A stretch of DNA of 42,321 bases, taken from assembly GCA_029573015.1 (NCBI GenBank), contig JAKQHK010000132.1, forward strand, positions 1 through 42,321. The letters run 5' to 3'. Source of the stretch: a bacterium. GTDB lineage: Bacteria > Patescibacteriota > CG2-30-54-11. Positions 6,096 to 12,630 of this stretch are shown piece after piece. Positions within the stretch are counted from its first letter, which is position 1; each line of letters starts with the position of its first letter. A program made the translations under genes and the position numbers. The notes below the pieces were generated by a model. The model saw only the letters and a list, made by a program, of their open reading frames with translations. It was not told the DNA's origin and did not search any database.

Positions 6096-8387
6096 TTGGC
6101 GCGCACCAAAAAAAACAAACGGAAAACGAAACGAACGGCAAAGAGTACCCGTACTACTGTACGCCGGCGCCGGACCAAAAAAGAACAGCAGCAACTCGTC
6201 CGGGAAATCTTCTCGGTCTTTTTCTTCACCTTCGGGCTTGCCAGTCTGGTAGTCATGTACAAAACCGAAGGGGAAACCGGCTTCGCGCTCCGCAGCTTTC
6301 TGGTCGGCATGTTCGGCAAGGGCGGTTGGTTTGTAAGCATAGCTTCCTTTTTCATCGGGGTGCAACTGCTGTTCCCGGCGCGCATCTGGGAACGCTACAG
6401 CCGCATCGCCTGGGCTGGAGGTATTGCCTGGGCGCTCCTCGGTCTGCTCGAACTGCCACTCATCGCAGCCAAAACCCCCTTTGCACTCGAGACGACCCAT
6501 GGCGGACGGCTTGGTTATGCTTTATCTAAAACTGTCAGCTTTTTCCTTGGCTCCTTCCTCACCGGTGTTCTGGAAATAGCGCTCATCCTCACTGGCATCA
6601 TGATCCTCACCAATCTCTCGCTCGAATCCCTCGCTGAACGCCTGTCTGCTTTTCTGACTGCGGCAAGCGAACGGCTGCAGGAAGCATTTGCCTCCCTGCG
6701 GAACGCCGCCATTGAACGCCAGCAGCAGCAAACGCCACCCAAGTCACGATCGAGAACGTATGAAGAACCGGAACCTGACGATACACCGCCTCCAGAACCG
6801 TTCCCCCTCAGGGAAGACTACCGGGAGGTGGCCTTTTCCCAAAAAAGAATCGAAAGAGCCGAACCGCATCTGGAACCAGAAGTCCGGACACCTTCCCCTG
6901 CAACCCCGACAAAATCTTCTGTCTGGTTTCTCCCCCCTCTTGATCTCCTTGACCCGCTGCCCCGCGAGCAGGCTGCCCAGGGAGATCCGGAAAAACGGGC
7001 CCGCATCATTGAAAATACCCTGCTTAGCTTCGGGGTGGAAACCAAGGTCGTGGAAATCAACACCGGCCCCACAATCACGCAGTATGCCCTAGAACCGGCT
7101 GTGGGGGTAAAGGTATCAAAAATCACCTCCCTGCAGAACGATCTGGCGCTGGCACTCGCCACTCCCCAGATCCGCCTAGAGGCCCCGATCCCCGGTAAGC
7201 CCTATGTCGGTATCGAGGTACCGAACTACAACGCGGCCACGGTTACCCTGCGCGGACTGCTCCAGACAAGCGAATTTCAGAAAAGCAAACACATCATGCC
7301 GCTGGCGCTTGGCAAGAATGTTTCCGGCGATGTCTTTTTCGCCGATCTCGTCAAAATGCCCCATCTGCTCATCGCCGGTGCGACCGGGTCGGGAAAAAGC
7401 GTCTGCATCAATAGTGTCATCGGCAGCGTTTTGTATAAATATAATCCGGGCCAGGTCAAATTTATCATGGTAGACCCCAAGGTGGTGGAGCTCTCCCGCT
7501 ACAATGGCATCCCCCACCTCCTCTCCAAGGTTATCACCAAGCCCCAAAAAATGATCAGCAGCCTGAAATGGACCATCAACGAAATGGAACGCCGGTATAA
7601 AGTTTTCGGCGCGTCCGGGGCGCGCAATATTGAAATTTATAACGCCAAACAGGTCGATGAGCTTACCAAACTTCCTTACATCATCGTCCTCGTTGACGAG
7701 CTCGCTGATCTCATTCTCGCCTCGCCGGTGGAAGTGGAGGAGCTCATCTGCCGGCTTGCCCAGAAAGCCCGCGCCACAGGCATTCATCTCGTTCTCGCCA
7801 CGCAGCGACCTTCGGTCGATGTCGTTACCGGCCTGATCAAGGCCAATATCCCGGCGCGCATCTGCTTTGCCGTGGCCAGCCAGATAGATTCCCGGGTCGT
7901 GCTCGATGCCATGGGCGCGGAAAAACTGCTCGGCAAGGGCGATATGCTCTATCACGCCCCGGATGTAAGTAAAATGATCCGTCTGCAGGGCGTATTTGTC
8001 TCGGATGCAGAAGTGGAACGGCTCGTACAGTTTTGGAGCGGTCAAGGCACCCCCGAGTACCTCGAAGAAATCATTAACCAGCCGGTCGGCATCCCTACCA
8101 GACAGGATAACGAAGAATACGAAGACGACCTGCTGCCTGCCGCACTCGAAGAGGTTGTCAGGGAAGGGCGCGGCTCTGCCTCACTGCTGCAGCGCCGCCT
8201 GCGTATCGGCTATGCCCGGGCTGCCCGGCTCATCGATATTCTGGAAATGCAGGGAGTTCTCAGTCCCGCCGATGGGAGCAAACCGCGGGAAATCCTGCGT
8301 ACCTCGCTGCCCAGATCCGCCCCGGCTGCCTTTCCGGACGAAGAACCAGCTCCTACGGACCAGTCACTTTTTGACGAGTACCGATAA
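6096..8387 (+). CDS. ftsK: DNA translocase FtsK/SpoIIIE
   Basis: N-terminal TM segments, Walker A AGATGSGKSVCIN, IIVLVDELADL, LATQRPSVDVVTGLIKANIP, C-terminal gamma winged helix (SLLQRRLRIGYARAARLIDILEMQGVL). TTG start. Confidence 0.95.
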   Translation: MARTKKNKRKTKRTAKSTRTTVRRRRTKKEQQQLVREIFSVFFFTFGLASLVVMYKTEGETGFALRSFLVGMFGKGGWFVSIASFFIGVQLLFPARIWERYSRIAWAGGIAWALLGLLELPLIAAKTPFALETTHGGRLGYALSKTVSFFLGSFLTGVLEIALILTGIMILTNLSLESLAERLSAFLTAASERLQEAFASLRNAAIERQQQQTPPKSRSRTYEEPEPDDTPPPEPFPLREDYREVAFSQKRIERAEPHLEPEVRTPSPATPTKSSVWFLPPLDLLDPLPREQAAQGDPEKRARIIENTLLSFGVETKVVEINTGPTITQYALEPAVGVKVSKITSLQNDLALALATPQIRLEAPIPGKPYVGIEVPNYNAATVTLRGLLQTSEFQKSKHIMPLALGKNVSGDVFFADLVKMPHLLIAGATGSGKSVCINSVIGSVLYKYNPGQVKFIMVDPKVVELSRYNGIPHLLSKVITKPQKMISSLKWTINEMERRYKVFGASGARNIEIYNAKQVDELTKLPYIIVLVDELADLILASPVEVEELICRLAQKARATGIHLVLATQRPSVDVVTGLIKANIPARICFAVASQIDSRVVLDAMGAEKLLGKGDMLYHAPDVSKMIRLQGVFVSDAEVERLVQFWSGQGTPEYLEEIINQPVGIPTRQDNEEYEDDLLPAALEEVVREGRGSASLLQRRLRIGYARAARLIDILEMQGVLSPADGSKPREILRTSLPRSAPAAFPDEEPAPTDQSLFDEYR

Positions 8388-9513
8388 CTGTAATCTTGCT
8401 GCTTCTTGTCGCTGCCACGAGCAATAAGAGAAAAACCACTAGAGTATATCCGTACAGCTCGAAGCGATAGCGCGAGTATTGCGTACCAAGCTTGCTGATC
8501 AACCCCAATCCATCGGGATGCATGACGAGAAAAAAAGTCACAAAACCAGAATAGAGTAACGGCCAGAATCCGCAGTAAACAGTCAAAGCCAGAATCGGAA
8601 TCGCCAGATACTGGTTGGCAATCGCCGGAGCGAACAAAACCACGCTCAGTAGATACCAGCAAAAACTATCGGCGATTTTTTTATGGCGTACTGAATAACC
8701 GACTGCGAGGATCAAACAGCTGCTTACCAGAAGGGCATAGGGTGACAGATCGGGCAGCTGTAAACCGAGTATTTCGCGACCCAGCACACGGAGTAAACGC
8801 CAGAAGGGAAAGTTTGCCTTGGATTCATAAAGGAAAACATTTTCAATGATACCGGCTTTCCCCGTGCTCCAATACGGAATGAAACTCGCGAGAAAAATGC
8901 CGATCGGTACGCAGAGGTACACAATTTTTTTTCGCAGGGATTTCTGGGAAAAAAACAGCCAGACGGGGTAGAGAAAGAGGACATGCTTGATAATCAGCGA
9001 GATCCCGAGAAGTACCAAACCAACACTATCCTGCCAGCGGAAGTTGGCGTTATCACGATTGGACTCCAATAGGATTACTGCTGCCAGTCCGAAAGCCAGC
9101 GCCAGATTATCAAACTGGTTGTGATAGCCGCCGATCAGGAGCAGCACCGGATTGAGGAGATAGAGCAGCGCTTTGCCTAGCGAATAGCGTTTCCAGATCA
9201 CTCCGGCGATGAATACATCAGCCAGGGTAAGCGTGGTAATTATCAGCATGCGGAAAACCACCAGCGGCAATATAGTACCGGACGCCAACTGCGCAAACCA
9301 GCCAAGCAGCTGGGCAAACCAGGGTCCGTAATTGTAGCGGGTTGTCTCGCTATAGACCGTACCGCCCGCGCGAACAATATCCCCGACAATGGTATATGAT
9401 TCGAAATCATAATTCGAACCGAATGTTGCCAGCCAGAACCGCAGCCAGTAACTCAGGCAGCATCCGAGCACGAACAGAAAAAGTCCTGTGGTACGGGTAC
9501 GCGAAAACTTCAT
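8353..9513 (-). CDS. Polytopic membrane protein, probable GT-C type (GT87/mannosyltransferase-like) glycosyltransferase
   Basis: About 10 hydrophobic segments, DFESY near the N-terminus, YNYGPWFAQLLGW; ATGA-coupled to the upstream GT2 gene. Confidence 0.6.
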   Translation of the reverse strand: MKFSRTRTTGLFLFVLGCCLSYWLRFWLATFGSNYDFESYTIVGDIVRAGGTVYSETTRYNYGPWFAQLLGWFAQLASGTILPLVVFRMLIITTLTLADVFIAGVIWKRYSLGKALLYLLNPVLLLIGGYHNQFDNLALAFGLAAVILLESNRDNANFRWQDSVGLVLLGISLIIKHVLFLYPVWLFFSQKSLRKKIVYLCVPIGIFLASFIPYWSTGKAGIIENVFLYESKANFPFWRLLRVLGREILGLQLPDLSPYALLVSSCLILAVGYSVRHKKIADSFCWYLLSVVLFAPAIANQYLAIPILALTVYCGFWPLLYSGFVTFFLVMHPDGLGLISKLGTQYSRYRFELYGYTLVVFLLLLVAATRSSKITVIGTRQKVTGP

Positions 9514-10226
9514 ACATTCGCTCGAAATTTGAAAAAATCACGCAATGCCTGTCTGCCGATACGGACGATGGAACCAATATGGACAGAATTAACGCCTGTT
9601 CTACGCGGGAGAAAGGTAATCGGATGATATGCCTGCGATACATGATATTTGGTGAAAATGATGGCCAGAAGAATATTGCTCAGAAAATAATCTTCCGGCA
9701 CTTTAGGCAGATATGCTGCCAAGGTCGTCGCACGCATGAGGCGGAATGGGCAGTTGGCATCGGGGATGCGCAGACGGAACATCCCGAGAATCACGAGCTT
9801 GAGGACGAAAGCAACGAACCGGCGGGACCATCCGTCCTGCCTTTTAACCCGCCTGCCGATCTGCACATCATATCGATTCCGCAGCTCCCAGAACATCCAG
9901 AAGTCATCCGGGCAGGTCTGGCCGTCACTATCTGTCTGAAATACATAGTCAGGTTTCTGCTCCAGTGCAAACCGGTAACCCGCAAGACAGGCGGCTCCAT
10001 GTCCTCCGTTTTTTTTTGTATACACGACAAGCTGCGTTAGTTCTTTTTCCAGCAACCCAAGCAGCGCCGGGGTCGTATCAGTGCTCCCGTCATCAACAAC
10101 CACGAGCCGGCTGTCCGAACCGATTTTCCGGACGACCTCATACCAATCGTGTACTGCAGCTTCGATATTCTCAGCTTCATTATACGCGGGCATGACTATA
10201 TACAACGTTTCCTGCATGGTAGACAA
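9510..10226 (-). CDS. Family 2 glycosyltransferase (dolichyl-phosphate mannose synthase-like)
   Basis: IVMPAYNEAENIEAAVHDWYEVV, VVDDGSTDTTPALL, QTDSDGQTCPDDF motifs. Confidence 0.88.
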   Translation of the reverse strand: MSTMQETLYIVMPAYNEAENIEAAVHDWYEVVRKIGSDSRLVVVDDGSTDTTPALLGLLEKELTQLVVYTKKNGGHGAACLAGYRFALEQKPDYVFQTDSDGQTCPDDFWMFWELRNRYDVQIGRRVKRQDGWSRRFVAFVLKLVILGMFRLRIPDANCPFRLMRATTLAAYLPKVPEDYFLSNILLAIIFTKYHVSQAYHPITFLPRRTGVNSVHIGSIVRIGRQALRDFFKFRANV

Positions 10227-10352
10227 TTTTCCTCTAATCCAATACTATTTAACAGCCAGGTCATATACCAGTGTATCTCATCGCAAATTACCTCATTTGT
10301 CAACCAGAGAAGATATGATACACTCCAAACAACTGTTACGGAATGCTGCACC

Positions 10353-11339
10353 ATGAAAAAACCTCTCAAACAAACAGTGGATGGACGCCACGAAGCACGC
10401 AAATTAGCCTTGCAGGTTCTCTTCGAAGCGAGCTTTCACCCGGTTGACCTGAATACAGCTGCCGAACGGATAAAACAGGAAATGTTGCCGCCGGTCTGCG
10501 ATGCCAAACTGGTTGCCCAGCTTCTGCACGGGGTGGAAACAGAGCGGGCACAGATTGACCAGATCATCGCCCGCTGCGCCCCCGAGTGGCCGCTCAGGCA
10601 ACTACCCAAGCTTGACCTGAACATCCTCCGGATCGCTATTTATGAATTATACATCGCCAAGTCAGTGCCACCGAAAGTAGCAGTGGACGAAGCGGTTGAA
10701 CTGGCCAAGGAATTCAGCGAAGAAAGTACGAGCAGCTTTGTCAACGGCGCGCTCGGAACCGTAATCAAGCTACGGGAAAAGGAAACCAATACGGAAACTG
10801 CCTTGTTCATCGGGCAGTTCCAGCCTTTGCACCGCGGCCACATGAAAGCCCTCAAACAAATCGCCGCCCGTTTCCCCAAAATCATCATCGGCATAGCCGG
10901 CGCTGATCAGAAACAGACGGCCGAACAGCCGCTCAGCTACGATGAACGCCGCTCCCTCCTCCTCGATGTATTCGCTACCGCCGACTGGCCGCCGATCGAA
11001 GGCAATGAAGCAGTCATCGCCCAACCGCACATCGAAATCATCCCCCTCGCTGACCAGGTGGATGACGGCGACTGGGTGCGCCAGGCCATCAGTCTCAGCC
11101 CGAATTTCTCGGTTGTTTATACCAACCATCCGCAGGTAACCAGACTGTTCAGCGAGGCAGGATATCCGGTTTTTGCCGCCCAGCTGCACAAACCCGACGA
11201 GTACAGCTGCCATGAAGTCAAACGCCGTATTGCCCTTGGCCATACCTGGGACCGACTAGTTCCGACCAAGGTCGTCAAGTTCGTCGAGGATCAGAACATC
11301 ATCGAACGTATCCGTTCAGGCGGGAAGGGCGGAAAGTAA
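10353..11339 (+). CDS. Fusion protein: transcription antitermination factor NusB (aa about 1-143) + archaeal-type nicotinamide-nucleotide adenylyltransferase NadM (aa about 149-328)
   Basis: N-terminal NusB (ARKLALQVLFEA, PLRQLPKLDLNILRIAIYEL, VPPKVAVDEAVELAKEFSEESTSSFVNGALG). C-terminal NadM (ALFIGQFQPLHRGHMKAL, PLSYDERRSLL, EVKRRIALGHTWDRLVPTKVVKFVEDQNIIERIR). Single uninterrupted frame. Confidence 0.88.
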   Translation: MKKPLKQTVDGRHEARKLALQVLFEASFHPVDLNTAAERIKQEMLPPVCDAKLVAQLLHGVETERAQIDQIIARCAPEWPLRQLPKLDLNILRIAIYELYIAKSVPPKVAVDEAVELAKEFSEESTSSFVNGALGTVIKLREKETNTETALFIGQFQPLHRGHMKALKQIAARFPKIIIGIAGADQKQTAEQPLSYDERRSLLLDVFATADWPPIEGNEAVIAQPHIEIIPLADQVDDGDWVRQAISLSPNFSVVYTNHPQVTRLFSEAGYPVFAAQLHKPDEYSCHEVKRRIALGHTWDRLVPTKVVKFVEDQNIIERIRSGGKGGK

Positions 11340-11405: not shown

Positions 11406-11837
11406 ATGTCAATCGAAACACTTGTTGCGGACCAGCTTAAAAAGGACCTGCCTCGTTTCTCTGCCGGAGATACCGTGCGGGTGCACAATAAGATTATCGA
11501 AGGAGATAAGGAGCGCATTCAGGTATTTGAAGGTGTGGTGCTCAAGCGTGTCAAGGGAGAAGGCATACGCGGCAGCTTCACCGTCCGCCGCATTGCCAGC
11601 GGTGTCGGCGTCGAACGTACTTTCCTCCTGCACTCACCCAATGTCGCCAAGATCGAACTGGTGCGCGAGGGTAAAGTTCGACGGGCACGCCTCTATTATC
11701 TCCGCGATCTCAAGACGAAAAGCATCAGGATTAAAGAAGACAAACGCGCCATCTATGCCAAGTCAGAAAGCAAAAAAGCTACCCAGGAACAAAGGGCAAA
11801 GGACAGGAAATCAGCCAAGAAAACAAGTGAAGCGTAA
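11406..11837 (+). CDS. rplS: 50S ribosomal protein L19
   Basis: [83 protein letters not shown]. Confidence 0.98.
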
Positions 11838-11958: not shown

Positions 11959-12630
11959 ATGCCATCATGCAAACAGGAACAGCTTCTCTGGGCTAAAGGA
12001 TTTCTGCATATAGCCGGTGTTGATGAAGCCGGACGCGGTCCGTGGGCAGGACCGGTGGTTGCCGGCGCGGTCATCCTGCCGACCCGCTGTGACGAAACAG
12101 TGCTGCAGGGGCTGACTGATTCCAAACTGCTCAGCGAAAAACAACGCGACCGCTGGTTTGAGGTTATCAAACGGCTTGCCCTTGCCGTAGGCACCGGGCT
12201 TGCGTCAGCCCGCGAAATCGATCAGCTCGGCATCGTCCCTGCTACCAAAAAAGCCATGCTTACCGCCATCGCCCGTCTGGAAACCCCGGCGCAATATTTG
12301 CTCATCGACGCGCTTAAATTCCAGGAAACCGATCTGGATCTGCTGGCTCAGGAAACACGGGAGCAGCTCAAACCCCTCATGCGCGCCCAGGTGTATTTCA
12401 TCAAGGGCGAACTGATGAGCTATTCGATCGCCGCCGCCTCCATCATCGCTAAAGTCAGCCGCGACCGAATTATGGCGGAACTGGACCGCCGCTATCCCCG
12501 TTATGGCTTTGCCCGGCACAAAGGCTACGGCACCAAAGAACACCAGAAAGCCCTGCTGACCTATGGTCCCTGCCCGGAACACCGGGCAAGCTTCAGACCG
12601 ATCAAACAATTGCTTGATATAGGTTTGTAA
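11959..12630 (+). CDS. rnhB: Ribonuclease HII
   Basis: IAGVDEAGRGPWAGPVVAGAVIL, DSKLLSEKQR, ASIIAKVSRDRIM, YGFARHKGYGTKEH. Confidence 0.97.
   Translation: MPSCKQEQLLWAKGFLHIAGVDEAGRGPWAGPVVAGAVILPTRCDETVLQGLTDSKLLSEKQRDRWFEVIKRLALAVGTGLASAREIDQLGIVPATKKAMLTAIARLETPAQYLLIDALKFQETDLDLLAQETREQLKPLMRAQVYFIKGELMSYSIAAASIIAKVSRDRIMAELDRRYPRYGFARHKGYGTKEHQKALLTYGPCPEHRASFRPIKQLLDIGL

Follow-up and report, generated by a model that had tools for sequence, protein, structure and literature searches.

Can the only NusB of a cell be joined to an enzyme domain of NAD metabolism, and what would such a domain do there? The question is raised by a gene in the window, the whole stretch of 42,321 nucleotides of DNA analyzed here, which comes from a member of Candidatus Wirthbacteria. 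From ATG 10353 to TAA 11339 the gene is a single unbroken frame of 328 codons, as a preliminary description of this DNA had stated. Its product joins the antitermination factor NusB to a domain of the NadM family of nucleotidyltransferases. The preliminary description knew of no described NusB–NadM bifunctional protein, and the 5.39 million open papers searched likewise held no relevant one on a NusB-NadM or NusB-Nudix fusion. The architecture is conserved within its lineage and absent from the literature searched. The features of the locus are as follows.

6096..8387, plus strand: ftsK-type DNA translocase, the conserved upstream neighbor
10297..10324, plus strand: promoter-like TTGTCA-16-TACACT, 5′ of the fusion gene; weak evidence, with two found against 1.1 expected
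10353..11339, plus strand: nusB-nadM fusion gene, 328 aa
10389..10769, plus strand: NusB domain, aa 13-139 (PF01029 and TIGR01951)
10770..10796, plus strand: short polar linker, aa 140-148 (LREKETNTE region), the gap between the domain borders
10797..11318, plus strand: NadM-family nucleotidyltransferase domain, aa 149-322 (PF01467, NF002243/TIGR01527, PDB 1f9a and Foldseek)
10812..10841, plus strand: motif 1, GQFQPLHRGH, aa 154-163, with Gln155 (codon 10815-10817) in place of the family Arg11 and HxGH intact
10896..10901, plus strand: Ala182-Gly183 at the family-invariant Gly38-Ser39 position, by alignment with relatives
11205..11222, plus strand: SCHEVK, the C-terminal phosphate-binding motif SGTxxR, with His287 for Thr133 and Lys290 for Arg136
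11406..11837, plus strand: rplS (ribosomal protein L19), the conserved downstream neighbor
11959..12630, plus strand: rnhB (RNase HII), the conserved next gene

Both domains are complete, as had been claimed. The full Pfam NusB profile (PF01029) is covered at aa 13-139 (E 5.6e-31, 108 bits against a cut-off of 23.1), and the NCBIfam nusB model TIGR01951 is matched at 115 bits, above its cut-off of 88.35. The NusB half can be aligned along its length to the NusB proteins of M. tuberculosis, T. maritima and E. coli. The full CTP_transf_like profile (PF01467) is covered at aa 151-292 (E 2.4e-11). The NadM models extend to aa 322 and match strongly, each under its cut-off: 120.9 bits against 127 for NF002243, and 114.6 bits against 181.2 for TIGR01527, a cut-off passed by none of 380 Patescibacteria genomes.

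The closest solved relatives of the NadM half are the archaeal NMN adenylyltransferases (NMNATs) MJ0541 (1F9A, E 3e-25) and MTH150 (1EJ2). An AlphaFold2 model of the fusion, built on a three-row alignment, is of moderate confidence (mean pLDDT 68, with values below 50 at aa 125-147 in the linker region), and the relative placement of its domains is not interpretable. Foldseek searches with this model returned the MTH150 and MJ0541 NMNATs as the best matches (target TM about 0.8, 33-34% identity), and NusBs were also matched. By Foldseek, the modeled fold of the fused domain is that of the archaeal NMNATs. The description of the domain as “archaeal-type” holds for its fold and closest structures, but standalone NadM-like genes occur across Patescibacteria and the NadM tree gives no archaeal placement. 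The branching of this tree does not separate an origin from archaea from one in other Patescibacteria. The label “archaeal” is therefore misleading for the fused domain.

The fusion is not confined to the window. In a search of 59 related genomes, the full-length protein was present in three only, with the others matching NusB alone or NadM alone. These are the window genome (G000), Ca. Wirthbacteria CG2_30_54_11 (G001, MNZT01000030) and Ca. Wirthbacteria AlinenLipids_bin-4622 (G002, CAISZI010000001). They are all three genomes of the class in the collection, represent three genera and were assembled independently; the known fusion sequences thus number three, from genomes that are 69-97% complete. 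Relatives with the same architecture had been proposed as a check, and homologs with always separate domains as the contrary case; the domains are fused in all three Wirthbacteria genomes of the collection. Identity to the window protein is 58% in G001 and 55% in G002, within a full-length range of 54-58%. The fusion supplies the sole PF01029 match of each genome, and in the NusB tree the three fusions form one clade (support 100/99).

These findings bear on whether the fusion could be an artefact of assembly or sequencing, or a pair of proteins produced via an internal start. The preliminary description had pointed to a possible error at about 10780-10805 and to a TTG at 10803; that codon is present, and G000 is a fragmented assembly of 140 contigs with 69% completeness. 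The identical architecture in the separately assembled G001 and G002 excludes a local frameshift or an error of assembly. No start codon is conserved at the position of the TTG, and the frame is continuous in all three genomes. An artefact or internal start of any kind retains a negligible probability, and the NusB-NadM fusion is real beyond reasonable doubt. The N-termini of the three homologs (MKKPLK, MSKPIK and MKPLKQ) all correspond to ATG 10353. An upstream GTG at 10149 was considered as the start and rejected, as the homologs begin at the ATG.

The gene order ftsK-[nusB-nadM]-rplS-rnhB is conserved in the three genomes. In the window genome only, a minus-strand segment (8353-10226) lies between ftsK and the fusion and encodes a family-2 glycosyltransferase and a 386-aa hydrophobic protein with no Pfam match; ftsK directly adjoins the fusion in G001 and G002.

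The active site of the NadM half is altered in all three proteins. The three fusions were aligned with 20 relatives (18 Patescibacteria NadM-type domains and two archaeal enzymes), and residues are numbered as in Methanothermobacter MTH150, with entry 4YP7 as the reference sequence; this differs from 1EJ2 at residue 47, a position left unused. Arg11 of the G-R-[FMY]-Q-P motif is arginine in 20 of 20 relatives, including the standalone NadM of other Patescibacteria, and is Gln, Glu and His in G000, G001 and G002, respectively. Gly38-Ser39 is likewise GS in all 20 relatives and reads AG, CG and ID in the fusions, a loss in each case. Two further positions are invariant in the relatives: Thr133 (H, L and T in the fusions) is lost in two of the three, and Arg136 (K, R and R) in one. 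The SGTxxR motif accordingly reads SCHEVK, KCLEIR and SSTNIR, and is intact in G002 only, which has the least altered active site of the three. The catalytic HxGH motif is kept (HRGH, HRGH and HKGH), as are Gln13, Pro14, Arg55 and Trp87 in all three. The GQFQPLHRGH motif noted earlier is thus present with its HxGH intact, but its first glutamine is not typical, as the family reads GRFQP.

Solved structures exist for the MTH150 mutants R11A, R11K, R136A and H19A, with Arg11 mutated in 1m8f and 1m8g. The Arg11, Arg136 and His19 positions are taken as part of the active site on this basis; for Arg11 and Arg136 the evidence used consists of PDB titles and sequences. Enzymes of the NadD and CoaD types presumably have another residue at the equivalent of Arg11, and catalysis could therefore survive its replacement.

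The metabolic context adds to the doubt about an enzymatic role. NadC is found in all three Wirthbacteria genomes, as is NadD above its curated cut-off, and NAD synthase (NadE) is matched in G000 and G002. NaMN is the product of NadC and the substrate of NadD. As Arg11 is replaced in all three fusions, and NadC and NadD already supply NaAD, NAD synthesis by the fused domain is unproven and may have been lost. The suggested link between antitermination and NAD synthesis therefore holds as a union of NusB with a NadM domain, while its enzymatic part is in question for these same reasons. No NadD above the cut-off was found in the other Patescibacteria with a standalone NadM. The standalone gene is usually a neighbor of nadE: in eleven of these genomes the NadM match lies no more than 100 bases from a nadE match, an arrangement that fits a functional NAD enzyme. 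A different NadM fusion occurs in one Patescibacterium (G272, L063:1486-2850), where the domain is joined to quinolinate synthase NadA; Pfam places CTP_transf_like at aa 7-130 and NadA at aa 158-449, and GRFQP is intact.

The main rival to a non-catalytic role is a true bifunctional protein, in which NusB would be joined to an active NMN or NaMN adenylyltransferase and co-expressed with ribosome synthesis. Its role might be, for example, to recycle NMN from the reaction of NAD-dependent DNA ligase, a task that either PncC or a NadM can perform (PMC3680494). PncC, the alternative NMN recycler, is found in G000 and G001, with no match in G002. Together with its most intact active site, this hints that the G002 domain may keep activity, a hint drawn from three genomes. 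A complete domain that keeps HxGH and Trp87, and whose sequence is under purifying selection (see below), would also suit an enzyme. This reading is nonetheless rather unlikely, given the replacement of Arg11 and Gly-Ser in all three fusions, NadD in all three genomes and PncC in two of them. NAPRT was not found in the three genomes, nor was the NMN-making NAMPT/NadV, whose absence from the matches also counts against a bifunctional enzyme.

Purifying selection acts on the fused domain, which evolves about as fast as NadD. Between the Wirthbacteria genomes, identity is 67-72% for the NusB halves, 39-46% for the NadM halves and 38-54% for NadD. The first and second codon positions of the NadM half differ less than the third (e.g., 0.39, 0.32 and 0.63), which indicates constraint. 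In the NadM tree the fused domains sit on a long stem of 1.26 changes per site. Such a stem is as expected for a change or relaxation of function that preceded the split of the three genera.

How such a fusion could arise is suggested by the neighbors of nusB elsewhere. In a survey of 27 loci (five were missed by a simple motif search and left out of the counts), the 3′ end of nusB is overlapped or directly adjoined by a separate Nudix gene in four genomes (L013, L020, L021 and L028), and by rnc in many other Patescibacteria loci. This arrangement suggests that the fusions come from stop-loss joining operon neighbors. It would also make an accidental readthrough fusion easy, in which NusB works and the NadM tail is tolerated, either slowly decaying or purely structural, for instance as an oligomerization handle. 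The eroding NadM active site fits this explanation. However, the frame and about 40% identity have been kept across three genera at the rate of NadD, with codon positions 1 and 2 constrained, and this points to selection on the tail. An accident of readthrough is accordingly improbable, and ranks after the bifunctional enzyme.

NusB has also acquired another partner in Patescibacteria. Among the best-scoring NusB matches listed for the 380 genomes, at least 15 proteins carry a C-terminal Nudix domain (L102, L103, L104, L105 and L109-L119, in genomes G014, G051, G026, G034, G229, G248, G239, G290, G264, G162, G222, G339, G184, G142 and G213). Both domains were confirmed by Pfam in all seven of those tested. 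The Nudix box is canonical in six of the 15 and degenerate in nine. The Nudix label requires at least three state changes under well-supported branches of the NusB tree, and these fusions therefore have several origins. The separate Nudix gene at the nusB 3′ end is the likely precursor. Parallel fusions with degenerate boxes suggest a recurrent regulatory use.

The reading tentatively preferred here, at somewhat under even confidence, is that the Wirthbacteria protein is an antitermination factor with a NadM-derived ligand-binding or scaffold module of weak or no NMNAT activity. NusB works with S10 (NusE) on boxA RNA in rRNA transcription. The fusion would supply the only NusB of the cell and would act in this complex. 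Its C-terminal domain would have retained the fold of a nucleotidyltransferase and some of the nucleotide pocket, with weak or no NMN adenylyltransferase activity. It may bind a nucleotide (ATP, NAD or NMN) or act as a scaffold, and so could modulate antitermination or rRNA assembly. The loss of catalysis, the retained ligand binding and any antitermination effect are what we infer, and the role is considered the most likely by analogy with NadR, NrtR and SuhB. Consistent with it are the presence of the fusion in all three genomes as the sole NusB, the altered active site, the parallel NadD pathway, the purifying selection and the long stem. Against it are the conserved HxGH, Gln13, Trp87 and Arg55, and in G002 the intact Ser-Ser-Thr...Arg and unmatched PncC.

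A wider and more speculative proposal, to which only a low probability is given, is that Patescibacteria have repeatedly made NusB responsive to metabolites through fused nucleotide-binding domains, NadM in Wirthbacteria and Nudix elsewhere, with catalysis then decaying. If true, NAD, ADP-ribose or adenylate status would directly adjust rRNA synthesis through the NusB/S10/boxA step. The NAD-state regulators NadR, NrtR and NiaR act at promoters; in these bacteria with very small genomes, a sensor on NusB would shift NAD sensing to the antitermination of rRNA transcription and to the assembly of ribosomes. Because NusB-Nudix fusions have arisen in parallel, the proposal can be examined over a large number of genomes. 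Were the domain an active NMNAT instead, the fusion would tether NAD synthesis to the transcription machinery in a new bifunctional enzyme.

The protein can be compared with several known systems. As a NusB (TIGR01951, PF01029), it matches at full length above the cut-off and is the sole NusB of its genome, whereas the usual NusB is free-standing, of about 140 aa, and lacks the 185-aa C-terminal enzyme-like domain. With NadM (TIGR01527; MJ0541 1F9A, MTH150 1EJ2) it shares the fold, HxGH, Trp87, Arg55 and the C-terminal WxxLVP region, but Arg11, Gly38-Ser39 and partly Thr133/Arg136 are replaced, it is joined to NusB and it co-occurs with NadD. RsmB, the 16S rRNA m5C967 methyltransferase, also carries a NusB-type RNA-binding domain on the N-terminal side of its enzyme domain; it differs in that this enzyme domain methylates rRNA and in not being the NusB of the cell.

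The inositol monophosphatase SuhB serves as a Nus factor and brings NusB/E into the rRNA complex (PMC6614801). Here the fold of a metabolic enzyme is put to use in antitermination with NusB/E, a functional analogy that may extend to the fusion, although SuhB is a separate protein of an unrelated fold. The NadM-Nudix enzymes of Synechocystis and Francisella (2QJO, 2R5W) and NrtR show NMNAT and Nudix modules swapped onto partners; the Wirthbacteria partner is NusB, with no Nudix domain. For the mycobacterial MsNrtR no hydrolase activity could be detected, but the protein responds to ADP-ribose (PMC6800001). Dead Nudix domains thus serve as sensors, a parallel to the reading of a catalytically impaired NadM.

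The NadR of enterobacteria combines an HTH repressor, an NMNAT and an NR kinase, and is a weak adenylyltransferase and NAD-liganded regulator. It differs in being a DNA-binding HTH repressor with a kinase; Pfam finds only NusB and CTP_transf_like in the fusion, with neither an HTH nor a ribosylnicotinamide kinase domain, and NusB is an RNA-binding antitermination factor. In both, a transcription regulator that acts on nucleic acid is joined to an NMNAT domain, and the weak enzyme with NAD sensing known from NadR is what the Wirthbacteria fusion may resemble.
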